Below are positions 4,442 through 17,139 of a stretch of 64,000 nucleotides of DNA, piece after piece; the first letter of the stretch is position 1, and every line of letters begins with the position of its first letter. The position numbers and the translations under genes are program-made. The notes beneath the pieces were generated by a model. That model was not told the origin of the DNA. It was given only the letters and a program-made list of their open reading frames with translations, and did not search any database. The DNA is from an uncultured Actinomycetes bacterium (GTDB lineage Bacteria; Actinomycetota; CADDZG01; WHSQ01). The DNA is taken from NCBI GenBank assembly GCA_937863385.1, contig CALMBW010000019.1, forward strand, positions 124,001 to 188,000, in the 5' to 3' direction.

Positions 4442-5163
4442 GAGGTGGGAGAGGCCTCCGGCATGGGAGATCCCTCGGCCGTAGTCGGCTCGGGACTCGG
4501 GGTTGGATCTGCGTCACTCGATGGCGAACCAGAAGGCTCTGGGTCGGTCGAAGGCTCGGCGCTCGGCGAGACGGAAGGACCCGGTTCCGGCTTGCCGGCA
4601 GGAACCAGTTCCTCGTCGAGGATGACGCGCACCTCATCCATCAGCGCGTCGAGGGCCACCAGGAATTCTTCGGGTTCGATATCGCCGTCTTCAAGGTCCT
4701 CCCACATCTCTGAGATCTCCTTGTAGATCTGCACCAGACGTTTCATCCCCTGACCTGTGAAGTGGATCGGGCCCTCCTCGACGCCGACCACGAACTGATA
4801 TGCGACAGCGAACGTTTCGCACAGCGAGCATTCATCGTTGATCGCGATCGCCACGTTCTCTGGAGCTACCGTTGTTACATCCCCCATGACCAGAACGATC
4901 TGGATCGCTACCGCAACGGTCGTGCAAGCCTCGCAGCTCGAGTAGGCCAGCGCGAGGTTGGTTTGGTCGACTATCCCGTCGGTCACTCGCACGATATCGA
5001 AGGCGAACTCGAAGAGGCTCGCTCCATCCTCCTCATTGACGACGATGGCTTCGTTATCGGCGATGTCCTCGAGATCTCCGATCTCTTGGGCATAAGCCGT
5101 AGTGGGGACGAGAAGGAGTAGCAGAGCTGCCCAGAGGGCTAGTGATCTATAGAACCTATTCAT
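4438..5163 (-). CDS. Secreted protein with three ~30-residue repeats, two carrying CxxC
   Basis: The 241-residue protein has a clear signal peptide (hydrophobic LALWAALLLLLVP, AYA cleavage site near residue 25). Three similar repeats follow: residues ~38-66, ~68-98 and ~103-130. Each starts N-x-A-[IL]-x-[VIY] and continues into an alternating strand such as FAVAYQFVV. Repeats two and three carry C77-x-x-C80 and C112-x-x-C115; the first lacks cysteines. A helical acidic stretch (residues ~135-180) and a Pro/Ser/Glu-rich tail end the protein. Its ATG overlaps the M50 peptidase stop (ATGA). I do not recognise a characterised family. Structural or disulfide/metal-binding roles on the cell surface are possible. 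Confidence 0.8.
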   Translation of the reverse strand: MNRFYRSLALWAALLLLLVPTTAYAQEIGDLEDIADNEAIVVNEEDGASLFEFAFDIVRVTDGIVDQTNLALAYSSCEACTTVAVAIQIVLVMGDVTTVAPENVAIAINDECSLCETFAVAYQFVVGVEEGPIHFTGQGMKRLVQIYKEISEMWEDLEDGDIEPEEFLVALDALMDEVRVILDEELVPAGKPEPGPSVSPSAEPSTDPEPSGSPSSDADPTPSPEPTTAEGSPMPEASPTS

Positions 5164-7004
5164 GGCGAGGCCTCCGGAGTTGGGGTCGGGGTGGGCTCTT
5201 CATCTGACGTGGGACTTGCAACGGGCTGCGGCTCTTCTTCCTCGGTGGTGTCGTCTCTGGATCCCGTGGTGGCGGGGTCATCGGAGCTCGACTCTTGCTC
5301 TTCGATACCGGGGGCGCCGTTCAACTCGGTCTCGCGTTGTTCGGTAAGCGACGGGCGACCGGAGGCCGAATCCGAGATGGCTTGAACCCCCTCCGTCAGA
5401 GTCCATCGTTCGCCAGGCTGGATGGGCCGATACTCGCCGTTCGGCCACAGGATGTACCCGGCGAAAGCGATGCACACCAGTGCCAAGGCGGCGAAACCGG
5501 TGCGGAGCACCGGACGCCCTTCGGTCATCCCCCAGGCCCCGGTTCCGATGCGCTTGAAGACCCGCGAGAACGTTATCGACATCCCGAGCAACGGCAGTAC
5601 CAAGAACACGATCTGCAACGCATCAACTGCCGCTTGTCCGTAATCGCCCTTCCGCCAAGCCTCCGTCAGCTTCCCAGACGACCGCTGGAAAGAGTCCCAA
5701 CCCGTTGCCAGGACACGCGGGGCGCTGAGAACCATCATCACGAACAAGAACAGCAGAAGCGGGATGACGATCACCACCCATAGGGTCACCACTACCCGCA
5801 CCCAGGTCTTCAGTTCAGAAACCGAGTCTTCAGTTTCGTGGCCGGGGATCAAGCTCCGCAGGGTCGGCTTCACTCGTGAGAAGAGGTCGGGCACTCCGGT
5901 GAGATCAGAGATGACGTAGTACCCGTCCATCCTCAAGAACGGGATGAAGTTGTAGATCATCAACATGTGCTGCATCAAGATCAGAACCAGCAAGGGTTCG
6001 AAACGAGTCAGCATGTACACGCCGGCGATGGCGATAGAGAAAAGACCGTTGAAATACACGCCACCGAGGTCGGTGCGCACACGTCCGCCTTTCCCCAAAC
6101 GATAGGTATCTGTAACGTCTGTGTAGAAGGCCGGCCATACGACATAGATCCCGAAGCCGATCACTCCCGGGCGCGCCCCCCCATATCGGCATGCCGCGGC
6201 GTGGCCGAATTCATGCCACAGGATCGACAAGATGAGCAGGACGTACACACCCAGGATCAACAGGGGGTTGTAGAGAAGATCACGCATCGATTGCCCGATG
6301 CCGTGGGAACTGAAGTACCAGATATCCACGGCGACCAAGCCCGCCACGAAGGCGAACATCACTGGGAACCAGAAGAGCGGCTTAAGAAGGATGGCGGCCG
6401 CGTTCACTCCCCTTTCTCCCAGCAGTTCCTTCTTGAGCTTCAAGGCGAGGAGAGGATCTGCCTTCTGCACATCCGGCGAGCTTCCATCCGGATGTGCCAG
6501 AACGCCCAGCGGTTGCAGATTGTTCTCAATGAGGTAGGCGACGTTGTCGGCGCTAACTTTGCGCCCGAAACCGTCGGTCACCTTTGCCGCTATCGCCTCG
6601 AGGTCGCGGCTGCCGTCGGCAGCTTCGGCCACGAGGTACAGCAGCTGACTGAGTTGGATCATCTGCCCGTCGTCACGACGGGCGATGTAGGGGTCTTGCT
6701 TGTACCCGGACCCCTCGTAGCGTCCGACGAGCTCGATCCCGGGCGCCAGCTTCGGCTTGCTAGCGCCGGACGCCGAGGGCGGGTTGCCCGCGGATGCCCT
6801 TTCGGCTACAGCGGTCGAGGCGGTTGCTCGGGGAGCCGCCCCGGGATTCGCTTCCCCATCCGTGAAGTCATCGGGGTTGCGCGTCACGGCCGCCGGTGTC
6901 ACTTGGGTCGGTGCGTGTTCACGACCGCGCGACACCCCATCCTGAGATCTGTCGATGACCTCGGCTCCGGGCTCAGATGGAGCTTTCATCACTGTGGTTG
7001 GCAC
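5160..7004 (-). CDS. M50-type membrane zinc metallopeptidase with PqqD-like N-terminal domain
   Basis: The 614-residue protein has a disordered N-terminus (1-85), a PqqD-like winged-helix region (~90-172, ending LIENNLQPLGVLA), then several transmembrane segments. The metal-binding motif is HEFGH at 264-268; the second M50-type motif is NFIPFLRMDGYY (~352-363). More membrane segments and a Ser/Thr/Pro/Glu-rich tail follow. PqqD-like domains bind leader peptides in many RiPP pathways. Lying just downstream of four small peptide genes, the protein is a strong candidate to recognise and cleave or process them; this is inference. The GTG start is preceded by AGGAG seven bases away. The gene is translationally coupled to the secreted CxxC protein. 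Confidence 0.85.
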   Translation of the reverse strand: MPTTVMKAPSEPGAEVIDRSQDGVSRGREHAPTQVTPAAVTRNPDDFTDGEANPGAAPRATASTAVAERASAGNPPSASGASKPKLAPGIELVGRYEGSGYKQDPYIARRDDGQMIQLSQLLYLVAEAADGSRDLEAIAAKVTDGFGRKVSADNVAYLIENNLQPLGVLAHPDGSSPDVQKADPLLALKLKKELLGERGVNAAAILLKPLFWFPVMFAFVAGLVAVDIWYFSSHGIGQSMRDLLYNPLLILGVYVLLILSILWHEFGHAAACRYGGARPGVIGFGIYVVWPAFYTDVTDTYRLGKGGRVRTDLGGVYFNGLFSIAIAGVYMLTRFEPLLVLILMQHMLMIYNFIPFLRMDGYYVISDLTGVPDLFSRVKPTLRSLIPGHETEDSVSELKTWVRVVVTLWVVIVIPLLLFLFVMMVLSAPRVLATGWDSFQRSSGKLTEAWRKGDYGQAAVDALQIVFLVLPLLGMSITFSRVFKRIGTGAWGMTEGRPVLRTGFAALALVCIAFAGYILWPNGEYRPIQPGERWTLTEGVQAISDSASGRPSLTEQRETELNGAPGIEEQESSSDDPATTGSRDDTTEEEEPQPVASPTSDEEPTPTPTPEASP

Positions 7005-7061
7005 CAGCTCCTGGTGGCCGTCCTTACGATCGTTGATCGGATCGTTCCTTTCCTATCCAGC

Positions 7062-7091
7062 AAAGAGGCGGCCCATGGGGGCCGCCTCTTT
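7062..7091 (-). terminator. Strong intrinsic terminator between peptide genes and peptidase
   Basis: Thirteen-base perfect arms (7062-7074 and 7079-7091) enclose a 4-base loop; on the minus strand the 3' arm ends CTCTTT. It separates the peptide genes from the M50 gene in the same orientation, so partial readthrough would yield much peptide mRNA and little peptidase mRNA. Confidence 0.85.
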
Positions 7092-7106
7092 GTCACAGCA
7101 TCTGGA

Positions 7107-7310
7107 TCAGGTGCTCTGGTCGATGTCGACGTCCTGTTCGGCGTTGGCATAGGCGACAGAGTTGTCAGACAGCACGTTCGCTGCAACTGCTGCGTTCACC
7201 GGGGCCGCCAGGTTCGCATTGATGAGCGCCATCTCTTCACGCTCGGGAAGTTCTTCGCCCGACTGTGCCTGAAGCTCTTCCTGAGTCAGTTCATCACGCT
7301 TCTCGGTCAT
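7107..7310 (-). CDS. Small peptide 1 of the tandem family (67 aa)
   Basis: This is the last of four tandem peptide genes. The ATG at 7310 follows AAGGAG eight bases upstream, so earlier in-frame codons are rejected. The N-terminal half is acidic and helical, with the shared block QSGEELPEREEM. The next segment is hydrophobic and Ala/Asn-rich (NAAVAANVLSD), then a variable stretch, ending DIDQST. No cysteine and no signal peptide are present. The leader-like N-terminus and neighbouring PqqD-domain peptidase suggest a ribosomally made, processed peptide. I do not recognise a named precursor family. A structural (fibre-forming) peptide is an alternative. Confidence 0.8.
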   Translation of the reverse strand: MTEKRDELTQEELQAQSGEELPEREEMALINANLAAPVNAAVAANVLSDNSVAYANAEQDVDIDQST

Positions 7311-7367
7311 CTCGAACTCCTTTCGAGTCGTCCATCCAATCAACACTGCTAACTGCTTCCTTGGTGC

Positions 7368-7592
7368 CTAGGCGGTGGGGTCGTCTCCACCGGTGCTTTG
7401 ATCGATCGCTGCGTCCTGGGTTGCATCGGCGTACGCAACTGCGTCGTCGGACAGAACGTTGGCTGCGACCGCTGCATTGATCGGGATCGCAACGTTCGCG
7501 TTCACAAGCGCCATCTCTTCACGCTCGGGAAGTTCTTCTCCCGACTGTGCCTGCAGCTCTTGCTCAGAAAGACCCTTGGTCTCTTCGGTCAT
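7368..7592 (-). CDS. Small peptide 2 of the tandem family (74 aa)
   Basis: It shares QSGEELPEREEM and INAAVAANVLSD with peptides 1 and 3. It differs by Val/Ile changes in the hydrophobic segment and an eight-residue C-terminal addition after IDQST (GGDDPTA region). The ATG at 7592 has AAGGAG upstream that overlaps the stop of peptide 3 (7603-7605), so translation of the two is likely linked. The longer in-frame reading into peptide 3 is not supported. Function unknown; probable substrate of the downstream peptidase by context. Confidence 0.8.
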   Translation of the reverse strand: MTEETKGLSEQELQAQSGEELPEREEMALVNANVAIPINAAVAANVLSDDAVAYADATQDAAIDQSTGGDDPTA

Positions 7593-7602
7593 GGCCTGCT
7601 CC

Positions 7603-7800
7603 TTAGGTGGACTGGTCGATGTCGCCGGTCTGCTCGGCGTTGGCAACCGCGGTTGCGTCGTCGGATAGAACGTTGGCTGCGACCGCTGCGTTCACCGGCG
7701 CTGCGAGATTCGCGTTGATCAGCGACATCTCCTCGCGCTCGGGCAGTTCTTCACCCGACTGTTGGTCTAGCTCTTGCTGCGTCAGATCCTTCTCGCTCAT
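7603..7800 (-). CDS. Small peptide 3 of the tandem family (65 aa)
   Basis: The ATG at 7800 is preceded by AAGGAGG, which decides the start over an in-frame ATG at 7830. The product starts MSEKDLTQQEL, contains the shared QSGEELPEREEM block and VNAAVAANVLSD, and ends DIDQST like peptide 1. Most differences among peptides 1-3 fall in the ten residues after VLSD, so that region may be the part under diversifying or specific selection. It lies between peptide 4 and peptide 2 on the same strand. Confidence 0.8.
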   Translation of the reverse strand: MSEKDLTQQELDQQSGEELPEREEMSLINANLAAPVNAAVAANVLSDDATAVANAEQTGDIDQST

Positions 7801-7826
7801 CCTCTGCCTCCTTCTCGCTGCTTCCC

Positions 7827-8054
7827 TCAACCGGATTTCTTCGGACCCTCTTCGCCGGAACGTTTCTTCCTCGACCGCGACGAGCGCTGCACGATGCGCT
7901 GCTTGGACGAGACGTGCGAGACGCTCCCCTTCTCTCCCACGTTGGCCGCTATCACGGCGTTTATGCCCCCCTTGATGGAGACACCGTCCTCGTCGTGATC
8001 GATCTCTTCGTTGATCACCTTTTCGACCTTCACATTCCGTAGGTGCCCCGGCAC
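7827..8054 (-). CDS. Small peptide 4, divergent basic-tailed member (up to 75 aa)
   Basis: First gene of the cassette. The N-terminal acidic block lacks the ELPEREEM sequence, but the centre reads GGINAVIAANVGEKGSV, matching NAAVAANVLSDNSV of peptides 1-3, and a Gln follows at an equivalent spacing. The C-terminus is strongly basic (RSSRSRKKRS) instead of ending QST. The start is uncertain: GTG 8054 has no good ribosome-binding site, and GTG codons at 8033 and 8018 are alternatives. It is probably a paralogue with a different role, for example nucleation, anchoring or immunity; this is inference. Confidence 0.65.
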   Translation of the reverse strand: MPGHLRNVKVEKVINEEIDHDEDGVSIKGGINAVIAANVGEKGSVSHVSSKQRIVQRSSRSRKKRSGEEGPKKSG

Positions 8055-8068
8055 GCTAGGGATAAACG

Positions 8069-8080
8069 CCCCATATGGGG
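8069..8080. promoter_or_regulatory. Perfect 12-bp palindrome CCCCATATGGGG in the divergent promoter region
   Basis: The palindrome lies between the peptide cassette (minus) and the LVIVD-repeat gene (plus), 15 bases upstream of the peptide 4 GTG. Its perfect symmetry and position fit an operator, but no regulator is identified. The rest of 8055-8193 shows no other clear element. Confidence 0.4.
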
Positions 8081-8193
8081 TTTAGAGACCCCCCGGACGT
8101 GGGAAGCCCGACCGGCTGACCAAGCAGGGATACCACTTCAGATAGCGAATCTCTCTGCCACAACCAAGCGACAAACTGGGGGTTCTCGGAGAA

Positions 8194-9336
8194 ATGAAGC
8201 GGATCATCGTTGTGACGGCGCTCGTCGCATTTGCTCTTTCGTCCCTATCCGTCTCGGCAGCAGCCAGAAGTCTCGAAGCGCCGTCCCCGGGTGGGATTTC
8301 CTCGGACAACGTCGAGTGGGTGAAGCACATCCCGTTCTCGGCCCCCAGTGGTTCCGGTGGGCGCCTGGTGGGGCGCTACTTCTATGCGCTCGATTCGACC
8401 AAGCTGACGATCTACGACACCAAGGACCCCCTGAACCCCGTTCCGGTGGGATTCCTTGAGAACCCACACGAGCCGGTGTTCACTCGTGAGGACGTCGACA
8501 CCAACGGCCGCATCCTGCTGATGCCTAACCTGGCGCTCGCTCCCGGGCCTCTCGAGATCGTCGATGTCGAAGACAAGACCAACCCGACGATCATCGCTTC
8601 GGTCCCCAACATGAGCAACCACACGTTCACGTGCGTTCTCGATTGCAAGTATGCGTACGGTTCCGAGGGTTTCATCATCGACCTGACCGACCCCACCAAC
8701 CCGATCGTCGGGGAGAAGAAGTGGGGCGACGGCAAGGCAGGCGGAAACAACGCCCACGACGTGACCGAGGTCGCTCCGGGAATCGTCCTGACGGCTACGC
8801 CACAGATCATGCTCTTGGACGCCCGCAAGGATCCGATGAACCCCAAGCTGCTTGCCGTGGGGATGACCCCAGACCAACGCTTCCAACACACCGCCGCGTG
8901 GCCCCGCATGGGCAGGGATCGTTGGATCCTGATGGCGGGCGAAACCAACTTCAAGCCCCGCTGCTCGGACAACGGTGGCGCCTTCATGACCTTTGACTCG
9001 AAGAACTGGCAGAAGACCGGCACCTTCGAGCTCATCGACGAGTACCGGGTCAGTAACGGTACGTACGCTGACGGTTCTCCTGTCGCCAACGCACTTGGTT
9101 GCTCTTCTCACTGGCACGAGCCACGTCCTGGCTTCCGCAACGGGGGCATCGTCGCTGCCGCCTTCTTCGAGCACGGCACCCGATTCCTCGACGTCAAGCA
9201 AGACGGTTCGATCGAAGAGGCCGGCTGGTTCATCCCCCACGGCGGGTCGACCGGTGCCGTCTACTGGCGCACCAAGAACATCCTTTACGCCACGGACTAC
9301 AGCCGGGGTATCGACATCCTCCGCTTCAAAGACTGA
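8194..9336 (+). CDS. Secreted LVIVD-repeat beta-propeller protein
   Basis: The 380-residue protein has a signal peptide (hydrophobic VVTALVAFALSSLSVSA, cleavage after AAA near 24). The mature part is built of repeats of the LVIVD type, e.g. KLTIYDTKDPLNPVPVGFL, LEIVDVEDKTNPTIIASV and FIIDLTDPTNPIVGE, which form beta-propeller blades. His-rich and acidic positions (NNAHDV, FQHTAAW, SSHWHEPRPG) are spaced through the blades and could bind metal. The ATG follows CGGAGAA. It is monocistronic: a strong terminator follows 16 bases after the stop. The enzymatic or binding role is unknown. Confidence 0.8.
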   Translation: MKRIIVVTALVAFALSSLSVSAAARSLEAPSPGGISSDNVEWVKHIPFSAPSGSGGRLVGRYFYALDSTKLTIYDTKDPLNPVPVGFLENPHEPVFTREDVDTNGRILLMPNLALAPGPLEIVDVEDKTNPTIIASVPNMSNHTFTCVLDCKYAYGSEGFIIDLTDPTNPIVGEKKWGDGKAGGNNAHDVTEVAPGIVLTATPQIMLLDARKDPMNPKLLAVGMTPDQRFQHTAAWPRMGRDRWILMAGETNFKPRCSDNGGAFMTFDSKNWQKTGTFELIDEYRVSNGTYADGSPVANALGCSSHWHEPRPGFRNGGIVAAAFFEHGTRFLDVKQDGSIEEAGWFIPHGGSTGAVYWRTKNILYATDYSRGIDILRFKD

Positions 9337-9351
9337 TACATCCCAGTCCAG

Positions 9352-9386
9352 AAAAAGGCCCCCTCATACGAGGGGGCCTTTTTTTG
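9352..9386. terminator. Strong bidirectional intrinsic terminator
   Basis: A 14-bp perfect stem (9352-9365 with 9370-9383) and a 4-base loop are followed by a T-run on the plus strand and an equivalent T-run on the minus strand. It ends the LVIVD gene. Before the element inserted, it would also have ended tRNA-Trp transcription from the other side. Confidence 0.93.
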
Positions 9387-9429
9387 CAGGGCGGGAGGGA
9401 CTCGAACCCCCGACCGCTGGTTTTGGAGA
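9386..9429. repeat. Left attachment repeat (attL), tRNA-Trp 3' remnant
   Basis: Forty-four bases identical to 14299-14342. It holds the anticodon loop to the 3' end of tRNA-Trp on the minus strand without the 5' half, so it is a non-functional remnant directly next to the terminator that originally served the tRNA gene. Confidence 0.95.
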
Positions 9430-9436
9430 GCAGTAG

Positions 9437-9459
9437 GGCCCGGGTCTCTGACCTGGGCC
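9437..9459 (+). terminator. Hairpin followed by T-rich tract just inside attL
   Basis: A 10-bp stem (9437-9446 with 9450-9459, one G-T pair) is followed by TTTCTCTATTT on the plus strand. It would insulate the element from plus-strand readthrough. The remainder, 9460-9718, has no gene I can support; it includes short G/C-rich inverted repeats and may hold the element's leading promoter. Confidence 0.65.
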
Positions 9460-9718
9460 TTTCTCTATTTCCCCTGGTGGCACGGCGAAAGTAAACGGAC
9501 TCTAGTTTTCACGGTTGCCATCGAATGCCCGCAGTTAGTTGAACCTGGAGTTGGTCCTGAGGCCCGCCCCTTGTTGGGCCCCAAGGGGCTGTGTAATTTA
9601 ACAAATGTCAGTCACCCCACACCGGGGGTGCAATCACCCAGCGGCCACTCTGCCGCAGTCACAGGGGTTTGTCTAAGAACCCCATTCCCTTAGCAAGGTC
9701 ATCCCAAGAAGGAGGAGA

Positions 9719-10084
9719 TTGACTACGCCGCTATCCGCCCTAGAGGGGCGACGAATCAAAGACCGAGAACGTAAGCGGAAAGTCAGGGGCACCACCCCAG
9801 ACCGAATCCGCATAGGCCCCCCAGAGGGGCCAGAAGGTGCGGACAACCGGAAAGACCGTGAGCAGGACCTCAAGGATTCGGTCCGACCCGTAGAGGCGCT
9901 TCCAGCGCCTCACCCAACACCCCACGGCATGACACCAGTCTTGCCATCGAAGTTGATCGGTAGCGGTCGAGTCCGACATCAGTACCGAAGATCATGCGGG
10001 CGTCCAGGTTGCCCAGCACCCGAAGGGTGTTTTTGCTACAGCGACCGGCACCCGACATTCGTCCGTTTAGAGAAGGAAGGTTGA
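9719..10084 (+). CDS. Hypothetical element protein, basic N-terminus and Cys cluster
   Basis: The open frame starts at TTG 9719 right after AAGGAGG (short 3-base spacing), giving 121 residues. The first half is rich in Arg and Lys (RRIKDRERKRKVRG); the second half has a Cys cluster CGRPGCPAPEGCFC near residues 94-107 that could bind zinc. The stop lies 2 bases before the next gene's ATG, whose ribosome-binding site is inside this frame, so the two are probably co-translated. No family recognised. The TTG start is inferred only from the upstream Shine-Dalgarno sequence. Confidence 0.55.
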   Translation: MTTPLSALEGRRIKDRERKRKVRGTTPDRIRIGPPEGPEGADNRKDREQDLKDSVRPVEALPAPHPTPHGMTPVLPSKLIGSGRVRHQYRRSCGRPGCPAPEGCFCYSDRHPTFVRLEKEG

Positions 10085-10086
10085 AT

Positions 10087-10557
10087 ATGAGCCAATGGAT
10101 AGATCACGACGACGCCGACGATCCACGGTCCACCGAAGATGTCGTGGCGTCGATCCCCAGACCCGGCGACAACCCCGCCCGACACAAGACCGCCAGTGGT
10201 ACCCATCACGGTGGGGAGTGGGTTTTCGATAAGGAATCTAAGCACCTCGAAAGCTACTTCCTGGACCTAGCCAACGGAAACAGCTACCACCGGGATGACT
10301 TTGTGAAGGAGCTTCGCATCGACACAGGGGATATGCCCGCTTGGGATTCGGTCACGCTCAAGGAGTACGTGAAGGATCAGGCCGCCGAACTCAAGAAGCT
10401 TCACGACGCCGGGTGCAGCCAAGAGGCATGGGAACTGGCTAGGGAAGCTGCCGCATACGTGGCCGAGAAGGCTGGGGGCTACATCACCCCTCATGATCCG
10501 AACGAGAACTCCCCGGACGATCCACGAGAGTTGGCCAAGCTGATCAGAAGGCAGTGA
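10087..10557 (+). CDS. Hypothetical acidic element protein (156 aa)
   Basis: The ATG at 10087 follows GAAGGAAGG and gives 156 residues; a longer in-frame reading from 9994 overlaps the previous gene and is rejected. The sequence is hydrophilic and acidic, starts MSQWIDHDDADD, and has a predicted helical centre (LKEYVKDQAAELKKLHDAG, EAWELAREAAAYVAEKAG). No membrane segment, signal peptide or motif that I know is present. It lies second in the element's plus-strand gene run, before the helix-turn-helix gene. Confidence 0.65.
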   Translation: MSQWIDHDDADDPRSTEDVVASIPRPGDNPARHKTASGTHHGGEWVFDKESKHLESYFLDLANGNSYHRDDFVKELRIDTGDMPAWDSVTLKEYVKDQAAELKKLHDAGCSQEAWELAREAAAYVAEKAGGYITPHDPNENSPDDPRELAKLIRRQ

Positions 10558-10609
10558 CGGCAGTAAGGAGGGAGCTATCAACGAACCGTCTGAGAGACAG
10601 GGATTCGTC

Positions 10610-11248
10610 ATGGTCCCTTTTGTCATCCTGGACGCCCCCGGGCTCTCTCGGATGGATAGGGAGGTTTGGATGCGACTGAAACGCCATGCCGGGTCTAGGG
10701 GCGTCACCACCGTAGACCAGGAGACCCTAGCCCTAGAGATGGGGGCGGGGGTGAGAACCATCCAACGTAGCCTCCAGAAGCTACGGGACGCCGATTGGAT
10801 ATGGCAAGAACCACAAGCTTGGGCTGGGGGCCGCCCCGGCCCGGTCAAGAAACACCTCTTGGTAGATATCGTGAAAGGGAGGGTGGTTCGGCGTCCTAAC
10901 GGCCGCCAACCATGGCGGGCAGAGGGGGCTTCCCAAGGGGCAACACGGCCGCCTCTAGCGGCCCGCTTAATAGAGACCCCTTTAGGGGTCTATATAGATA
11001 AAGAGAAGAAGTTGCCGGAGTCCAAAACTCCGGCTCTAACTAAGGAGGGACCTCAAGGTCCCAACCTCTTTGAACCTGCACAGGGCAAGCCTCCCCCCGA
11101 AGAGGGGGAGATCAAAGTGGCTCCCGATTACACCCAACACGCTCCCACGCCTTGCGTGGGGTGCGGAAAGCATGGGGTGTGTAGTGCAGACGGGATCACC
11201 ATGTGGTGTTACGAGTGCCTCTCATCCGCCCAGGCCGCCCCATGTTGA
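10610..11248 (+). CDS. Helix-turn-helix protein of the element, replication-initiator-like
   Basis: 212 residues from ATG 10610. Residues ~10-70 form a winged helix-turn-helix of the kind seen in phage and plasmid replication proteins (LSRMDREVWMRLKRHAGSRG, LALEMGAGVRTIQRSLQKLRDADW). A disordered middle and a Cys-containing tail (CVGCGKHGVC, then CYEC) that could be a zinc ribbon follow. The likely real start is upstream: a perfect AAGGAGGG at 10565-10572 is followed in frame by ATC at 10577, giving INEPSERQGFVM before the annotated Met. The annotated ATG has no Shine-Dalgarno sequence. Role in replication or regulation is inferred from domain type and position. Confidence 0.65.
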   Translation: MVPFVILDAPGLSRMDREVWMRLKRHAGSRGVTTVDQETLALEMGAGVRTIQRSLQKLRDADWIWQEPQAWAGGRPGPVKKHLLVDIVKGRVVRRPNGRQPWRAEGASQGATRPPLAARLIETPLGVYIDKEKKLPESKTPALTKEGPQGPNLFEPAQGKPPPEEGEIKVAPDYTQHAPTPCVGCGKHGVCSADGITMWCYECLSSAQAAPC

Positions 11249-11868
11249 AGCCACCGATAACCGGGTGGAGGTTCTGGGGAGGGAAGGTCCAGAGGGACCA
11301 TTCGTTCAGCCAACAGAACCCCATCTTCACGGCATCTCTTTTCTTCCCCTTCCAGCATCCCGAGTTTGAAGATGGGGACAACGACGACACTGATTGCTTT
11401 GTCACGTCGGCAGAGCTACCCCCAGCCACATGCAGACGTGGGGAACACCCAGCCCCAGACGACAACTGCTCCTGTGGGTGGCGCATGGTCACAGACCTAG
11501 ATGAACTGCTTGACTATGTGGGCTACCAATCGAGCCCACTAAGTGGCTGGTTCCATCTGCGGAACTATCTCGTGATAAGCGAAGTCAGGACTGACCAAGA
11601 GGTGTGTGAGCAAGTAGTAGGTGATGACCCCCCATCGACTTTGCGTGCGGCAACGCTGGCGATCACGAAACTCTATCTAGGGCCGGGATATGCACGGTTC
11701 CCAAGAACCTTCGAGAGGCAGTTTGGGGTTCCCGTGGAAGTGCCCCAGCCGTACATCGTCACGAACGGAATCCCTGGGTACGACTTCAAACACTGGATCA
11801 GGCAGTTAAGGGAGGGGACCACTGTCCCACTGGTCCCACTAGAGACCCCCCTCCCCACCCCCCGGTAG
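11242..11868 (+). CDS. Hypothetical element protein with HPAP...CSCG motif
   Basis: The ATG at 11242 overlaps the previous gene's last seven bases and gives 208 residues. A small Cys/His motif (CRRGEHPAPDDNCSCGW, residues ~63-79) resembles a motif I have seen in many actinobacterial and actinophage hypothetical proteins; the function is unknown. The C-terminal half has aromatic and proline-rich segments (GYARFPRTFERQFGVPVEVP). Earlier in-frame codons from 11203 lie inside the upstream gene and are rejected. Confidence 0.6.
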   Translation: MLKPPITGWRFWGGKVQRDHSFSQQNPIFTASLFFPFQHPEFEDGDNDDTDCFVTSAELPPATCRRGEHPAPDDNCSCGWRMVTDLDELLDYVGYQSSPLSGWFHLRNYLVISEVRTDQEVCEQVVGDDPPSTLRAATLAITKLYLGPGYARFPRTFERQFGVPVEVPQPYIVTNGIPGYDFKHWIRQLREGTTVPLVPLETPLPTPR

Positions 11869-11892
11869 GGGTGGGTTGGGTCTAAAGGAAAG

Positions 11893-12021
11893 ATGAAGAA
11901 CCATGTGTCTCTCGGATCAGGTCAGGGGCTAACCGTTTGGGAGGGTGGTTTCGGTTGCCCCTTCGCAGGTCTTAGTAGGAGCCCTTCGACAAAGGGGCCT
12001 CAATACAAAGGTGATCTGTGA
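11893..12021 (+). CDS. Possible 42-residue peptide in the element
   Basis: ATG 11893 follows AAAGGAAAG and runs 42 codons; its TGA overlaps a GTG (GTGA at 12018) that opens a frame continuing into the terminase-like gene. The Gly/Ser-rich product has no recognisable motif. Apart from this, the 374-base gap 11869-12242 holds short inverted repeats such as GGGTGACTTCACCC and a G-tract ending in GGGGGTACCCCC, which could be operator or origin sequence. Low confidence as a gene. Confidence 0.3.
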   Translation: MKNHVSLGSGQGLTVWEGGFGCPFAGLSRSPSTKGPQYKGDL

Positions 12022-12242
12022 AAACAAGCGTTAGAACTTCCGATCCCGGTTTGTTTCCCTCCTTCTCCCGGGTGCTCGGAAGCAGGGTGACTTCACCCAA
12101 GGTGGTGGGTCACCTCAGAGGGAAGGGGGTGGGGGGGTACCCCCTCCCCTTCTCCACCTCACTACCCGGTGGTATAGCGGCGCACCATGCCTGCCGGTAT
12201 GACCTCCGGGTTTACAAAATCATCAATGCAGAAAGGACACCT

Positions 12243-12614
12243 ATGGCTTCAAAGAATCCCTCGCCCCCTGTGGGGCTCGGAAAGGATGGTCGAGCCTTTT
12301 GGAGAGAGGTAGTCAAGGGATGGGACTGCAATCCCGACACCCTCCGACTACTGGAACGAGCCGCCCGAGTTCTCGACACGTTGGCAGTCCTCGATCAGGA
12401 ACTCGAATCAGCGGAGTTGATCCTGGAGGGCTCCCGTGGGCAGCCCATCGCTAATCCACTCATGACCGAACGTCGGTTACACAGTCAGGTGTTCGCCCAG
12501 CTAGTCCGCCAGCTTCGTCTTGAGGAAGCAGAAGCCGGTGGCTGGGAGGGCTTATCCATCTCAGAGCGAGGCCGCAAAGCGGCCCTGCAAAGATGGAGGA
12601 AATCCCCGCAGTAA
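12243..12614 (+). CDS. Terminase small subunit-like protein
   Basis: The ATG at 12243 has AAAGGA upstream and gives 123 residues. The start PPVGLGKDGRAFWREVVKGWDCNPDTLRLLERAARVLD, a central helix pair, the HPxV-like segment GQPIANPLMTERR and the final ISERGRKAALQRWRK match the pattern of P27-type and actinophage small terminase proteins, which bind pac/cos DNA and recruit the large subunit. No large subunit is present in the element. Satellites of Gram-positive phages commonly carry only a small terminase to redirect packaging. Family assignment is by pattern and not by search. An in-frame GTG at 12018 would add 75 residues of poor quality. Confidence 0.65.
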   Translation: MASKNPSPPVGLGKDGRAFWREVVKGWDCNPDTLRLLERAARVLDTLAVLDQELESAELILEGSRGQPIANPLMTERRLHSQVFAQLVRQLRLEEAEAGGWEGLSISERGRKAALQRWRKSPQ

Positions 12615-12621
12615 ACGGTAG

Positions 12622-12651
12622 TTGACTCCTCGCTTTCGCTCCTGTTATGTG
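12622..12651 (+). promoter_or_regulatory. Candidate promoter for the 12705-14283 gene run
   Basis: TTGACT at 12622-12627 is followed after 18 bases by TATGTG at 12646-12651, in the gap between the terminase-like gene and the next small gene. It may drive the small protein, excisionase and integrase genes separately. Confidence 0.4.
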
Positions 12652-12704
12652 GTCTCTGATTACAGAGCCTTACCGGAAGGCTCGCAGAGGCGAGGAGGTT
12701 GTTC

Positions 12705-12908
12705 ATGCTTGATCCTGTAGCGCCGGAGGTGCCGTGGGGAGTCACCAATTGCCCCGACTGCGATCATTGGACGGCAGAGATACACAAGCCCGTCCTGCAT
12801 GGTGACGAAATCGACCCGGACGCTGGCGATAACGCTCTGTACTACGTGGCCGAGTGTGTCTGTGGCTTCAGCACGGTACAGACGGTTGAGCTTGTTTCGG
12901 GAGCGTGA
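12705..12908 (+). CDS. Small Cys-containing element protein (67 aa)
   Basis: The ATG at 12705 follows GAGGAGG with good spacing. The product contains CPDCDHW near the N-terminus and ECVCGF near the C-terminus, a C-x-x-C ... C-x-C arrangement that suggests a small zinc ribbon. The stop overlaps the GTG of the next gene, so the excisionase-like protein is probably translated in coupling with it. Function unknown. Confidence 0.6.
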   Translation: MLDPVAPEVPWGVTNCPDCDHWTAEIHKPVLHGDEIDPDAGDNALYYVAECVCGFSTVQTVELVSGA

Positions 12909-13108
12909 AGCTCTACGGCATCGCTGAGATAGCGGAGCGGTTAGGCGAACGCCGAGAGACTGTTGCCCAGTGGTACTACCGCAGCCGAACGAACTCACCC
13001 GGTGGCATGGACCTGCCAAAGCCCGACTCCATTCTCAAGATGGGTCCGGTGTGGACGGGAGAAACATTGGGTCCATGGATTCGGAAGATGAGGAGGCGAT
13101 CTATCTGA
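12905..13108 (+). CDS. xis: Excisionase-like DNA-binding protein
   Basis: GTG 12905 overlaps the previous stop (GTGA) and gives 67 residues. The N-terminus LYGIAEIAERLGERRETVAQWYYR is a MerR/AlpA-type helix-turn-helix, and the basic end has WIRKMRRR. Size, fold and position directly before the integrase match excisionases, which bend attachment-site DNA and steer recombination to excision. Its 3' end overlaps the start of the integrase gene by 34 bases. Confidence 0.7.
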   Translation: MKLYGIAEIAERLGERRETVAQWYYRSRTNSPGGMDLPKPDSILKMGPVWTGETLGPWIRKMRRRSI

Positions 13109-14283
13109 AACCTCGAAAAAAAGTAGCGAAGGATGGAACCGTTTCCTGGCTAGCCCGTTGGTATGACCCGCAGGCAAGCAACCCTGTCAGGAAGGTGGTC
13201 CGGTCGAAGTCGTTCAGGACCAAGAGGGACGCTGAGGCATACCAGGCCAGGATGGTGCTGAGGATTCGACAGGGCACCTATGTTGATCCAACCCTCGGCA
13301 AGGTGACCCTTGCCCAGTGGTGGGAAAGGTTCCTGGAAACATCGTCCGTGAACCTGAAACCATCGACCCGAGAGACCTACTCGGCCCGGATGAAGGTTCA
13401 CGTTCTCGGCCCATTAGGCCGTCGCCCATTGGCGACACTCACACGGCTTGATATCGAAACGTGGATAGGGAACCTCACTCGGGAAGGGGTCAAGCCCGCC
13501 AACATCAAAGCCGCTCACAGTGTGTTGCGAAGGGTCCTTCAATCTGCCAAAGACGTAGGGGTTATCGGGACCAACCCAGCAACCGGCGTAGCCACGCCCA
13601 GGGTGCCTCGGGAGGAAATGCGAATCCTTAGCCCCGCAGAGGTTGAAGCCATCGCAAACGAGGTGGCTCCTCGGTATAGGGCTCTGGTCCTCTTACTGGC
13701 CTACGGGGGCCTACGGATCGGAGAAGCAACCGCCCTGCGGGTTGCATCCATGGACCTGCTTAGGGGCCGGGTGAATGTAGCTGAGGCCTTCTCGGAAGTG
13801 GGAGGCCGGTTAGTCCTGGGCTCCACCAAGACGGCTGGGAGCCGCCGAGTGGTAACGCTTCCATCGTCAATAACCCACGCCTTAAGAGAACATCTGGACA
13901 GGTTCCCTCCGGGACCAGACGGTTTGGTTTTCACGGGCGCAAAAGGTGGTGCGGTCCGTAGGACCGCCTTCTACCACCGGGTATGGATACCCGCCCTTAG
14001 GCGGGCCAACATCCAGGGACATGTTCGGGTGCATGACCTACGCCACACGGCGGTCTCCTTAGCGATCATGGTTGGAGCACACCCGAAAGAGATACAGGCT
14101 CGGGCTGGCCACTCATCTATCACCGTGACCATGGACCGCTACGGCCACCTTTTCCCCGGTCAGGATGAAGCTCTAGCCGCCAGGCTAGACGCCCTGATAG
14201 TGGCTCCTACGGACGATGGTTGGTCCACAGTTGGCCTAGGTGAATCGGGCAAGGTCGTAGGCCTCTACGACAAAAGGCCCTGA
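13075..14283 (+). CDS. int: Tyrosine site-specific integrase
   Basis: 402 residues from ATG 13075. The N-terminal arm-binding domain and SAM-like core-binding domain (TLAQWWERFLETSS ... STRETYSARMKVHV) precede the catalytic domain. Catalytic residues are visible: Arg214 (GGLRIGEA), Lys252 (STKTAGSRR), His320 and Arg323 (HDLRHTAVSL), His346 (AGHSSI) and Tyr356 (MDRYGHLF). The set is complete, so the enzyme is probably active. The gene ends 15 bases from attR and targets tRNA-Trp. The start could also be within the preceding overlap; M13075 lacks a close ribosome-binding site. Confidence 0.93.
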   Translation: MDSEDEEAIYLKPRKKVAKDGTVSWLARWYDPQASNPVRKVVRSKSFRTKRDAEAYQARMVLRIRQGTYVDPTLGKVTLAQWWERFLETSSVNLKPSTRETYSARMKVHVLGPLGRRPLATLTRLDIETWIGNLTREGVKPANIKAAHSVLRRVLQSAKDVGVIGTNPATGVATPRVPREEMRILSPAEVEAIANEVAPRYRALVLLLAYGGLRIGEATALRVASMDLLRGRVNVAEAFSEVGGRLVLGSTKTAGSRRVVTLPSSITHALREHLDRFPPGPDGLVFTGAKGGAVRRTAFYHRVWIPALRRANIQGHVRVHDLRHTAVSLAIMVGAHPKEIQARAGHSSITVTMDRYGHLFPGQDEALAARLDALIVAPTDDGWSTVGLGESGKVVGLYDKRP

Positions 14284-14298
14284 CCTGCACTTTCAGTA

Positions 14299-14342
14299 GC
14301 AGGGCGGGAGGGACTCGAACCCCCGACCGCTGGTTTTGGAGA
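14299..14342. repeat. Right attachment repeat (attR) within tRNA-Trp
   Basis: Identical to 9386-9429. It begins one base 5' of the anticodon loop (minus strand) and ends one base beyond the tRNA 3' end, so insertion leaves the tRNA sequence intact. Confidence 0.95.
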
Positions 14343-14372
14343 CCAGTGCTCTACCAACTGAGCTACCGCCCT
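14300..14372 (-). tRNA. trpT: tRNA-Trp (CCA anticodon)
   Basis: The 73-base cloverleaf folds fully: acceptor AGGGCGG pairs with CCGCCCT, D arm GCTC...GAGC, anticodon stem CTGGT/ACCAG around loop CTCCAAA (anticodon CCA at 14337-14339), and the TTCGAGT T-loop. The CCA tail is not encoded. The 3' half lies within attR and is now followed by element DNA and not by its former terminator at 9352. Confidence 0.96.
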
Positions 14373-14464
14373 AAAGCGGGGTCAGTCTATCGAGGCTCCG
14401 AGCGGGGGGCCACGTATTGGTTCGGGATCGGTTTCAGAGCGGTTGAGGCCACGACCTCGGCTCG

Positions 14465-14812
14465 TCAGGCAGGGATCAGTCTGCGACCCGATCGGGACCG
14501 CCACAGGGCTGCGCCCGCAGCGCCCGCTATCGCTACCGCCACCCCGGCATAGGTCTTCTTATTGCGCGCCAGGTGGGTTCGGACGGCAGCAACCCGGGTC
14601 TCGGGATCCGCGATCGCGTAGAGGGCAGGCAACAGATCTTGAGCCGGCTCGGAGTGGACGCCACGGAGCGAAGAAAGCGACCGGCCCAACTCTTGGTACC
14701 GGGAAACTTCCTTCTTGCAAGGCTCGCAACGGGCTAGGTGGCGGCGGACGGCAAGCGAGTCTTCGCTGGTCACGTAGCTGGGGAGCATCTCCTGGATCTC
14801 TTCACACCTCAT
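14465..14812 (-). CDS. Membrane-anchored zinc-finger anti-sigma factor
   Basis: 115 residues. The N-terminal zinc anti-sigma motif is H24-x3-C28-x2-C31 (HLARCEPC) with Cys3 as a further possible ligand. A single transmembrane helix (~91-107, YAGVAVAIAGAAGAALW) is followed by a short basic tail. It overlaps the end of the ECF sigma gene by 11 bases, so the two are coupled and the product probably sequesters that sigma factor at the membrane. The small extracytoplasmic part makes the signal unclear. A 92-base gap separates its stop from tRNA-Trp. Confidence 0.85.
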   Translation of the reverse strand: MRCEEIQEMLPSYVTSEDSLAVRRHLARCEPCKKEVSRYQELGRSLSSLRGVHSEPAQDLLPALYAIADPETRVAAVRTHLARNKKTYAGVAVAIAGAAGAALWRSRSGRRLIPA

Positions 14813-15419
14813 CTCGCACTCCTCGGTCGGGATCGCCGTAAACGATCTCTTTCAACTTCTTGCGAGCCCGATGGATCCGAACCTTTGCGTTCGTCTCGGA
14901 ACAATCAAGCTGCTTGGCGATCTCTTCGATCGTCAGGCCGTAAACGTCCTTAAGGACCAAGGCTGCCCGGTAACTCTCCGGCAACAACGCTAGCGCTTGC
15001 TCCACCTCTTGCACTTCAAGCCGAGCACCTGCGGCCGACTCGGTCGAAGCTGCGGACGGGATCTGTGCCAGCATCTCGTCGTCGGTCCTTGCTTCGTGCT
15101 TGGTTCTCCTGGTGCGCGACCTGTGCTTGCTGATCGCAGCGTTGGTCGCCACCCGATACAACCAAGTCGTGAACATCGCGTCGCCTCGGAATCCCTTGAG
15201 CCCCCGCCATGCCTTCAGGAACGCGTCCTGGGTCGCTTCGGAAGCATCATCAGGATCACCAAGGATCCTCAAACACAGCGAGTAAACGTCCCGGTAGGTC
15301 AGATCGACGAGTTCTTTCCACGCCGCTTGATCGCCTGAACGACAACGATCCACGAGCTGCGGGGACACGAGTCCCTCGTCCTGCTCTGCCGGGCTCTTCT
15401 TGGGACGCCACACCATCAC
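14802..15419 (-). CDS. ECF-type RNA polymerase sigma factor
   Basis: 205 residues. Sigma region 2 is at about 23-95 (YRDVYSLCLRILGDPDDASEATQDAFLKAWRGL, FTTWLYRVATNAAISKHR) and region 4 at about 140-195 (ALLPESYRAALVLKDVYGLTIEEIAKQL, KVRIHRARKKLKEIV). There is no region 3, as usual for ECF factors. The start is GTG 15419 or the adjacent ATG 15416; no strong ribosome-binding site separates them. Its regulon is unknown; co-regulation with the downstream anti-sigma factor is expected. Confidence 0.92.
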   Translation of the reverse strand: MMVWRPKKSPAEQDEGLVSPQLVDRCRSGDQAAWKELVDLTYRDVYSLCLRILGDPDDASEATQDAFLKAWRGLKGFRGDAMFTTWLYRVATNAAISKHRSRTRRTKHEARTDDEMLAQIPSAASTESAAGARLEVQEVEQALALLPESYRAALVLKDVYGLTIEEIAKQLDCSETNAKVRIHRARKKLKEIVYGDPDRGVRDEV

Positions 15420-15425
15420 TCCAGG

Positions 15426-16139
15426 TTACAGAGCCTCGTGGTCCCAGGCCGCTTGGCCCCAGCACACGACCGTTTCACCTGCACTCACCGAGAAAGACGC
15501 CGAACCTGAAGACTGAGACACCCTGCCCACCAACTCGGCCCCCGTACGAGCAGCGGGGCCGAAGCCGACGTGGGCTGCGACCAGCCGGCTCCCAGAGCTG
15601 CGTCTGATCATCTGCAGCACCCAGGAGGCCGGCAGGCCCGGCGGTACAACGGTGCCATCGAGCCCAGCGGCAGAAGCGAACCTCTCGTTGTAGTAGGCCG
15701 GGTTCAGATCCCAGGTTGCAGCGGCGAATGCGATCGAGCGCCCTGCATCGGCAGTTATCCGTTCGCCCAGAATAGGTCCTGGCTCGACGGTAGCCTCAAG
15801 TCCGTCGGCGAAACCCAGACGTATCTCCACTGTGGGCTCGGCACCACCTGCCGCCGTGCAAACCGATGTTGCTGCGCTTGCGTCGATCGACGCAAGCGAC
15901 CCGCTGAGCTTGTCTCCAGCGGCAACCTGTGCGTTCCATCTCACCGATAGAGTCGCAAGACGCAGGCGCGCTCTTTGATCCTTGAGCTCGGGGTGGGTCA
16001 GTGCGCGGTAGAGCGTCGGCACTACCGCGTATGCGAAGACGAAGCCCGGCGGGACCTCACCAGATTCGGTGATGGCCAGCGCACTTCGGAATTCCCGCAG
16101 CTTCTCTCGGCAAAGCTCATACTCCCAGGCGACGCTCAA
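15426..16139 (-). CDS. Probable hotdog-fold (MaoC/FAS1-like) dehydratase
   Basis: 237 residues. The segment FAAATWDLNPAYYNERFASAAGLDGTVVPPGLPASWVLQMI near 133-173 has the shape of the MaoC hydratase motif (A-x-x-[ST]-x-D-x-N-P ... G-x-x-x-P-G). The usual catalytic His after NP is replaced by Tyr (NPAYYNE), so activity is uncertain. The N-terminal half has the FVFAYAVVPTLYRAL segment of double-hotdog dehydratases. In many actinobacteria hotdog dehydratase genes lie just upstream of tRNA-Trp and secE; that context supports the call. It is followed closely by the ECF sigma gene. Confidence 0.6.
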   Translation of the reverse strand: MSVAWEYELCREKLREFRSALAITESGEVPPGFVFAYAVVPTLYRALTHPELKDQRARLRLATLSVRWNAQVAAGDKLSGSLASIDASAATSVCTAAGGAEPTVEIRLGFADGLEATVEPGPILGERITADAGRSIAFAAATWDLNPAYYNERFASAAGLDGTVVPPGLPASWVLQMIRRSSGSRLVAAHVGFGPAARTGAELVGRVSQSSGSASFSVSAGETVVCWGQAAWDHEAL

Positions 16140-16143
16140 GCGA

Positions 16144-16596
16144 TCAAAGGTCCGTGAACATCGACTCTAGACGTGAGAGAAGCTGCGCTTTATCCAGCTC
16201 TTCCTCGGTCTTGCCCTTCAGGTCTGCCTTCGGCGTGTCCAGCATGTGCTGCACCGTGCGAAGCATCTCGTCTGCCGCGAAAGGTTTCGTCAGATAGCGA
16301 TCCGCGCCGAGCTTGTAGCCCTTGACGATGTCACCTTCAGAAGTCTTAGCAGACAGGATCAATATCTTGATCTCTTCGCGCAGGTTCCGTTCGCGCATCT
16401 CTCTCAGCAGGGAGTAGCCATCAAGCGTCGGCATGATCACATCCAGGATCAACAGGTCTGGAGGCTGCTTGAGGATCATCCCAAGAGCTACGGAGCCATC
16501 GGGTGCTACCTGTACCGAGTGTCCCTGATCGATCAGGAGTGCACTGAGCAAGTGACGCATGTCCGCACTGTCGTCGGCAACGAGTATCCGGGCCAT
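16144..16596 (-). CDS. Stand-alone response regulator receiver (first copy)
   Basis: 150 residues. Receiver fold with acidic pair D8/D9, phospho-acceptor Asp52 (LILDVIMP), Ser83 and Lys104 (LTKPF). No DNA-binding or enzymatic output domain; the last ~35 residues form a helical tail (EEELDKAQLLSRLESMFTDL). The tail resembles that of the receiver at 16678, so the two are paralogues. No histidine kinase is adjacent. Such receivers usually act through protein partners. Confidence 0.9.
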   Translation of the reverse strand: MARILVADDSADMRHLLSALLIDQGHSVQVAPDGSVALGMILKQPPDLLILDVIMPTLDGYSLLREMRERNLREEIKILILSAKTSEGDIVKGYKLGADRYLTKPFAADEMLRTVQHMLDTPKADLKGKTEEELDKAQLLSRLESMFTDL

Positions 16597-16677
16597 CTCG
16601 CCACCTCCCCTGGTCAGCCCTACTAACGAGCAACGGTTCAGCCCCCGCCGATCGGAGGCTGCCCTCGTAACTCGATG

Positions 16678-17139
16678 TTAGACGAGGCCCGGGTCTTGGA
16701 ACACGGTCTCGAGCTGAGCCAGCAACAGCGCCTTGTCACGCTCCCGCTGGCGCCGCTGAGCAAGCTGTTCGGGCGAGGACGAAAGGAGTTCGGAGATGGC
16801 AGCTACGAACTCGTCGTGATCGAAGGGCTTGGTGAGATACATGTCGGCCCCGTGCTCGAATCCCTCGACCCTCTCGGACTCAGCGTTCCGAGCCGTCAGC
16901 ACGAGCACTCGAACCCCGGAGCTGCCGCTTCGCGAACGCAAGGCATCCAAGACAGCGAAGCCATCGAGTTCGGGCATCATGAGATCGAGGACCAACACGT
17001 CGGGGGGATCGGCAAGGACCGCTTCAAGAGCGCTACGCCCGTCCTTGGCGGCCATGACCTCATGGCCCTCATCCACGATCGATCTAGTAAGGATGCTCCG
17101 TACGTCTGGATCGTCTTCCGCGATATAGATGCGTGCCAT
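16678..17139 (-). CDS. Stand-alone response regulator receiver (second copy)
   Basis: 153 residues. Acidic residues E8/D9/D10, phospho-acceptor Asp52 (LVLDLMMP), Thr82 and Lys104 (LTKPF). The tail RDKALLLAQLETVFQDPGLV aligns with the tail of the neighbouring receiver. The two genes are 81 bases apart on one strand, but no overlap or shared ribosome-binding site indicates coupling. The kinase partner is not in this region. Confidence 0.9.
   Translation of the reverse strand: MARIYIAEDDPDVRSILTRSIVDEGHEVMAAKDGRSALEAVLADPPDVLVLDLMMPELDGFAVLDALRSRSGSSGVRVLVLTARNAESERVEGFEHGADMYLTKPFDHDEFVAAISELLSSSPEQLAQRRQRERDKALLLAQLETVFQDPGLV

Follow-up and report, generated by a model that had tools for sequence, protein, structure and literature searches.

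The tRNA-Trp element and its genes

The stretch analyzed here, referred to as the window, comprises 64,000 nucleotides of contig CALMBW010000019.1 from an uncultured Actinomycetes bacterium (assembly GCA_937863385.1). It contains a discrete unit bracketed by attachment (att) repeats at the 3′ end of a tRNA-Trp gene. It carries its own tyrosine integrase (Int), a helix-turn-helix (HTH) protein resembling an excisionase (Xis) and the small subunit of a phage terminase (TerS), without a large subunit (TerL), capsid or tail. The sequence points to a real, probably intact and very small phage satellite candidate of a TerS-only type.

The bracketing direct repeat (9386-9434 and 14299-14347) covers 49 bp with one mismatch and is exact over its first 44 bp, as stated in a preliminary description of the locus, which had also proposed a candidate actinobacterial phage satellite. 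The start-to-start distance between both copies is 4,913 bp; with equal base use, about 7e-18 exact 44-mer pairs would be expected by chance in 64 kb. The left copy (attL, 9386..9434) repeats the 3′-terminal 49 bp of the tRNA-Trp gene, the first 44 bp exactly. The right copy (attR, 14299..14347) is the 3′ part of the intact tRNA-Trp (CCA) gene on the minus strand (14299..14372), the host gene used as integration target. Judged from this arrangement, the tRNA gene is rebuilt on the integrase side of the element. Such an arrangement is usual where a tyrosine integrase uses the 3′ end of a tRNA gene and restores the tRNA. The limits of 9386 and 14342 given before hold for the exact repeat, whereas the right boundary shifts to 14347 if the 49-bp repeat is used.

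A near-complete tRNA-Trp gene was found in 12 relatives from the host's family, nine of which retain anti-sigma and sigma factor genes on the same side as here. Since the window integrase was not found near tRNA-Trp at any of these 12 loci (two of them with less than 400 bp on the 3′ side), the insertion is, by this comparison, peculiar to the host genome among the genomes compared. The exact empty site is not readable, because the left neighbor gene (8194-9336) was not found at the site in any of the 12 relatives. In one family relative (L065 and L084, G006:C15:317190-317455), partial copies of the tRNA-Trp 3′ end with 25-30 matched bp lie beside the intact tRNA gene, about 66 bp apart, and look like scars of repeated integration.

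The int gene (13075..14283, plus strand) encodes a tyrosine integrase of 402 amino acids, which matches PF00589 (E=1.7e-19) and PHROG 1 (E=2.1e-75). Its ATG start at 13075 was preferred over the start at 12970 in the list of open reading frames (ORFs). With an open frame and the motif residues R, H-x-x-R, H and Y readable by eye, the integrase is complete, as had been claimed. The preceding xis-like gene (12905..13108, plus strand), whose start overlaps the stop of ORF F, encodes an HTH protein of 67 amino acids. It matches a DNA-binding family (PHROG 597, 5.9e-7), and its match to an excisionase PHROG reached only E=0.17. Of the excisionase-like gene described earlier, the HTH protein and its position before int stand, whereas an excisionase family match does not; by sequence it is excisionase-like in these two respects only. 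A Pfam match of the same protein to Terminase_5 (PF06056; 21 bits against a cut-off of 20.3, 27 residues) was read as an HTH segment, and a terminase function was rejected.

The terS gene (12243..12614, plus strand) encodes a protein of 123 amino acids, which matches the terminase small subunit family PHROG 1496 with E=2.2e-17 over residues 4-100. In a search of phage proteins 37 records matched, all from actinobacterial phages; most of the 20 phage matches listed are annotated as terminase small subunit, and the best coverage was reached by Bernal13/Mendokysei-type mycobacteriophages with 33-35% identity. An AlphaFold model based on a two-row alignment (predicted local distance difference test, pLDDT, of 84) has HK97 TerS as its best neighbor among solved structures, with Z 8.9 over 94 residues (root-mean-square deviation, rmsd, 3.9) and Z 8.8 over 97 residues (rmsd 4.3), the next row showing Z 6.4. 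No match was found in 72,556 plasmid records. DndE, the sole match of the TerS profile among solved structures in the sequence search (E of about 0.5), was dismissed. By profile, phage homologs and predicted fold, the homology of the 12243-12614 product to small terminases is clear, and the small-terminase-like gene that had been proposed at this position is borne out.

Searches of Pfam, PHROGs and NCBIfam gave no match to genes for TerL, portal, capsid, protease or tail inside the element, nor to a transfer gene in any of its proteins. The claim of a compact element of less than 5 kb without capsid or tail genes thus holds, TerS being the only match of a structural kind within 4,913 bp. The eight genes called in the interior are read from the plus strand, show no internal stops and make up 83% of it. 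The G+C content of the interior is 58.6%, that of the remaining window 61.9%. Overlapping start and stop codons join ORF C to ORF D and ORF F to the xis-like gene, and several genes are preceded by clear Shine-Dalgarno-like sequences.

The left end (9435..9718) is non-coding, shows no clear codon periodicity and holds two terminator-like hairpins reading in plus direction (9435-9461 and 9566-9589); in the whole region 8 terminator-like sites were counted compared with 5.0 +/- 2.3 in shuffled sequences, a weak excess. A scan for sigma-70-type promoters gave zero where 1.3 were expected, and TRF reported no iteron array. ORF A (9719..10084, plus strand; 121 amino acids, basic) has a TTG start after AAGGAGGAG. 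It is doubtful and may not be a gene, because its codon periodicity is weak; it had no Pfam or NCBIfam match, a PHROG replication-initiation match of only E=0.11 and otherwise one match with E=9. ORF B (10087..10557, plus strand) is a gene call of 156 amino acids without a family in Pfam, PHROGs and NCBIfam and without a phage match at E<=10. One marginal match (35%, E=8.9e-4) was found in one of 395 other Actinomycetota genomes, at a locus (L091) where the ORF caller kept two ORFs, neither of them mobile-looking.

ORF C (10610..11248, plus strand; 212 amino acids) contains an HTH_36 domain (PF13730, E=2.1e-7) and a C-terminal CxxC...CxxC motif. It had no phage match and matches the PHROGs 1835 (HTH DNA binding, 1.7e-5) and 8102 (replication initiation, 0.005), which makes it a candidate for a replication-initiator-like protein. 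A strong Shine-Dalgarno-like AAGGAGGG lies at 10565-10572, some 40 bases ahead of the ORF C ATG, and an in-frame ATC codon stands at the usual spacing from it; the start of ORF C could lie upstream near this site, possibly with an unusual start codon. The start codon of ORF D (11242..11868, plus strand) overlaps the end of ORF C. Its 208-amino-acid product is an orphan without match in Pfam, PHROGs, NCBIfam, phages, 24 genomes of the same class (its own only) and 395 other Actinomycetota genomes, and its predicted structure is unusable (pLDDT 33). The gap before terS (11869..12242) is the largest intergenic gap with 374 bp, shows no clear codon periodicity and no Rfam match of note, and may be a candidate origin of replication or packaging site. 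Finally, ORF F (12705..12908, plus strand; ATG at 12705 after GAGGAGG) encodes 67 amino acids with cysteine pairs and no family match in Pfam, PHROGs and NCBIfam.

TerS loci in phages, other Actinomycetota and the host genome

In the six phages inspected out of the 37 TerS-matching records, TerL was found within one gene of TerS in every case (6/6). Four 11-kb records deposited as phages of Mycolicibacterium aichiense (Alyssa1, JSForest1, JSForest2 and Maddie1) also match TerS. Besides TerS, Alyssa1 and JSForest1 (L007 and L008; OR387110.1 and OR387115.1) encode a serine integrase as well as capsid, connector and tape-measure proteins; no portal is annotated in them, nor a TerL apart from the TerS-matching gene. 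Both resemble satellites with a capsid of their own that were entered in the database as complete phage genomes.

A profile (A1) was built from seven TerS, most of which come from elements without TerL. At E<=1e-5 it detected 19 TerS loci in 18 of 396 Actinomycetota genomes, the host's own being among the 18. Their neighbors were judged by one profile each, phrog_2 for TerL and PF05065 for the capsid. TerL adjoins TerS at a single locus (1/19, G079), a figure biased by the origin of the profile (see below). A PF05065 capsid gene lies within about 3.5 kb at seven loci (G058, G068, G155, G241, G307 and twice in G391). Neither of the two was detected at the other 11 (G000, G008, G037, G050, G063, G120, G251, G324, G368, G384 and G385), and the firm count of TerS-only loci is lower than this number, for reasons given below.

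The 19 loci were also scanned for exact repeats of at least 18 bp at a distance of 3-18 kb. Repeats of 23-55 bp bracket eight of them, seven at a tRNA or tmRNA gene and one (L041), by eye, at the end of a glutamine-synthetase-like gene. Ten loci showed no repeats, and the 18-19-bp repeats of L052 were not interpreted. Five bracketed elements are without detected TerL or PF05065, namely the window element (4.9 kb), L009 at tRNA-Leu (9.1 kb), L047 at tRNA-Phe (8.1 kb), L041 (14.8 kb) and L046 (11.9 kb). L009 carries a helicase/primase gene, L047 a primase-like gene, L041 a primase gene and an excisionase-like gene, and L046 a tape-measure-like ORF. In G008, which belongs to the host's family, a DnaD-like gene is followed by terS and a tRNA-Met gene near the contig end; this locus is probably part of a similar element.

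The nearest TerS found is that of L009 (G063:C5) in the metagenome-assembled genome (MAG) Soudan_30 (JADQBG010000016.1) with 41-44% identity, and the two-row TerS alignment, run against genome contigs, pointed to a single locus, on the Soudan_30 contig. At 7882-8283 of L009, a 133-amino-acid protein contains two copies of a motif from the end of the phage head-scaffold family PHROG 2592 (E=4.4e-12), by which it is a possible hijacker of helper capsid size or assembly. A TerS tree of 26 rows, from which the G120 row (69 amino acids) was left out, has three well-supported branches among 23 inner ones. By path length, G063 and G368, both without detected TerL or capsid, are nearest to the window TerS, followed by two mycobacteriophages; the tree is too poorly supported to show the TerS-only elements as one clade.

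The host genome (2.77 Mb in 27 contigs, listed as 99.78% complete) contains no PF05065 capsid gene. The phrog_2 profile, which also matches in 11 of 14 control genomes, pointed to three places in it, one clear TerL and two weak matches (19-20 bits). The clear TerL (PHROG 9, 6.6e-40) belongs to an element at a tRNA-Met gene (L020, G000:C3), and its phage relatives among the 20 matches listed are viruses of Thermus, Coprococcus and haloarchaea and one gut phage, none of them a TerS-bearing mycobacterial phage. L020 was rejected as a helper because no capsid gene was detected in the host genome. The L020 element extends over about 12.6 kb (about 4060-16721 of G000:C3:9000-28900) between 55-bp repeats that are 89% alike and carries genes for TerL, for a DnaD-like helicase loader and for an integrase, together with an excisionase-like gene. 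No capsid gene was found in it, and with TerL only it mirrors the TerS-only element. Possibly, a third tRNA island is present at L021 (G000:C27:20000-35000), where an integrase about 40% identical to the window integrase (6136-7376) overlaps a tRNA-Val gene with its 3′ end; its neighbors are, by eye, HTH, peptidase and DNA-methylase genes.

Satellite interpretation and competing explanations

Two general features of satellites are found in the element, which has its own integrase and att sites and no genes for a virion of its own. It is probably an intact phage satellite of very small size. Integration would rely on the Int and Xis that it encodes, its TerS would hand the element's DNA to the terminase and the heads of a helper phage, and the element probably moves in hijacked particles of another virus. 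The satellite proposal of the preliminary description is supported by the att core, Int, the TerS match, the lack of structural genes and the recurrence of such loci, with a helper packaging role that may be surmised.

Beyond the presence of Int, att and TerS, the steps proposed here are modeled on what the available parts of two papers describe for known satellites (PMC6092414, PMC10803314). Infection by or induction of a helper phage would trigger the cycle, and Xis and Int would excise a 4.9-kb circle. The HTH_36 protein encoded by ORF C, perhaps together with the products of ORFs A, B and D, may start replication, or the helper may replicate the element. Since 4.9 kb is far below a headful, replication would most likely yield concatemers. 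The element's TerS might then bind the element DNA at a site that may lie in the gap at 11869-12242 and recruit the helper TerL. Helper procapsids would be filled with satellite DNA, and re-integration would occur at the tRNA-Trp gene of the next cell.

Several observations weigh against a satellite of this kind. A check for a helper prophage with a matching large terminase had been suggested, and searches of the host genome with PF05065, PF05119 and phrog_2 revealed no resident helper, PF05119 giving no match and the sole clear TerL lying in L020 with other phage relatives; a helper would therefore come from outside. Near-identical elements were looked for in viral contigs, in Actinomycetota genomes and at the 12 tRNA-Trp loci of the family, and none was found. 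Scans of viral contigs with TerS, Int and the two-row TerS alignment and searches of the phylum with ORF D and ORF B confirmed no close relative of the whole element, and its spread is for this reason unproven. None of the element proteins matched a primase in Pfam, PHROGs and NCBIfam, and no replicase was recognised; ORF C is put forward as an initiator on account of an HTH domain. For TerS, the Foldseek E of the model against HK97 TerS was only 0.2, and Pfam and NCBIfam report nothing for the protein, a caution as to whether annotation pipelines see such elements. The recurrence counts are affected as well. The figure of one TerL-adjacent locus in 19 is biased to elements without TerL, because A1 was built mainly from such elements, and the single profiles phrog_2 and PF05065 can miss divergent TerL or capsids. 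Among the 11 loci with neither, a long ORF of G324 resembles, by eye, a tape-measure gene and an ORF of G384 a protease gene. Another four (G008, G050, G120 and G385) are close to the end of a contig, which leaves fewer than 11 firm TerS-only loci.

A degraded prophage, that is a temperate phage with a Bernalvirus-like TerS reduced to integrase, xis, a few early genes and terS, is unlikely. Phage relatives exist for both TerS and the integrase, ORFs A, B and D could be phage early genes, and the small size and the lack of a detected helper would also fit such a remnant. However, the att core is exact, all genes are open and arranged compactly on a single strand with overlaps, and no fragment of TerL, portal or capsid was found beside terS, where TerL lies within one gene in the phages inspected. 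Moreover, several att-bracketed elements elsewhere retain TerS without detected TerL. This recurrence in other Actinomycetota favors a satellite over a unique remnant, and the check for a degraded remnant turned out negative on the grounds of the exact att core, the intact overlapping genes, the lack of structural-gene pieces and the recurrence.

There is a slim chance that the element is a small integrative plasmid-like element, similar to an actinomycete integrative and conjugative element (AICE) or a mobilisable island, with terS acquired by chance or kept for a use other than packaging. A tRNA target, Int, Xis-like and HTH proteins are usual in actinobacterial integrative elements, and no phage-inducible regulator was recognised here. 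Against this stand the lack of transfer gene matches in the three family collections named above and the distribution of TerS, which is absent from the plasmid records searched yet present in phages and att-bracketed phage-like elements. Even slimmer is the chance of a resident anti-phage decoy, in which TerS would poison helper packaging and the element would gain by protecting its host and not by virion travel. Phage-inducible chromosomal islands (PICIs) interfere with helper phages according to the available text of PMC6092414, and a TerS without its own TerL could act dominantly. Among the six of eight element proteins scanned in PADLOC, a 13-bit mad1 match of the HTH protein was the only one and no known defence family was recognised, and the complete integration genes suggest that mobility is maintained.

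Relation to known satellites and significance

By its sequence, the element fits the broad kind of a phage satellite with its own TerS but neither of two layouts compared here, those of PICIs and of the minimal islands of Vibrionaceae (PICMIs). With PICIs carrying terS, of the type of the Staphylococcus aureus pathogenicity islands (SaPIs), it shares an integrase and att sites of its own, the lack of structural and lytic genes and TerS as sole packaging gene (PMC6092414, in the parts available). In the PICI layout described there, a divergent regulatory pair separates int on one side from xis-pri-rep on the other. The element differs by its size of 4,913 bp compared with about 15 kb (PMC6092414), by the lack of a divergent repressor/activator pair, all genes lying on the plus strand with int last, by the lack of a recognised primase-rep module and by its occurrence in a different phylum.

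The PICMIs, exemplified by PICMI115 with 6,110 bp, resemble the element in their minimal size, an integrase and a small HTH protein, the lack of capsid genes and likely concatemers to fill the head; unlike the element, which has TerS, no recognised primase and a tRNA-Trp site, they require int, alpA and a primase and reside at fis (PMC10803314, in the sections available). In the main text of that paper, as far as available, no word begins with 'terminase'. PICMI115 is the smallest satellite with characterized activity according to its authors (PMC10803314, in part); the window element is smaller, but is known from its sequence alone.

The element does not belong to the capsid-forming class of satellites, and genes for an own capsid and portal had no match in it. 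Alyssa1 and JSForest1 are likewise actinobacterial, with a TerS of about 32-34% identity, an integrase and no separate TerL annotated, but their capsid, connector and tape-measure genes and their integrase of the serine type set them apart. Candidate PICIs of Mycobacterium are defined by an integrase plus a capsid in the text available of PMC10654092. The Streptomyces satellites MulchRoom and MiniFlayer are also actinobacterial, the former with an HTH gene and an integrase of the tyrosine type, but both encode the small and large terminase, portal and capsid (PMC10690885, in part). L009 from Soudan_30 has the closest TerS found, which is its sole detected terminase subunit, and is bracketed by att repeats as well; it differs by its 9.1 kb, its tRNA-Leu site, a helicase-primase and the protein with scaffold-like motifs. 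A survey of actinobacterial prophages mentions that small elements may be satellites, and the word terminase is not found in its available text (PMC10023795). Among the papers listed in searches of an open-access library, no description of TerS-only actinobacterial satellites was recognised; SatelliteFinder may already count some of them.

Somewhat more tentatively, the element may belong to an unnamed, phylum-wide set of TerS-only satellites of Actinomycetota, elements of 5-15 kb that combine int, a small HTH gene and a replication gene with terS and reside for the most part at tRNA genes. This member would then be smaller than PICMI115, and its orphans B, C and D could form a new module for replication and helper control; the odds of this wider picture are put at a little under even.

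If the satellite reading is true, fewer genes would be needed for a DNA element to parasitise a phage, and the element would make it possible to test cleanly if TerS is enough by itself to redirect packaging. TerS-only satellites would extend to uncultured lineages of Actinomycetota. It would also suggest that many short integrase islands at actinobacterial tRNA genes, which are easily dismissed as prophage remnants, may be satellites recognisable by a lone terS.

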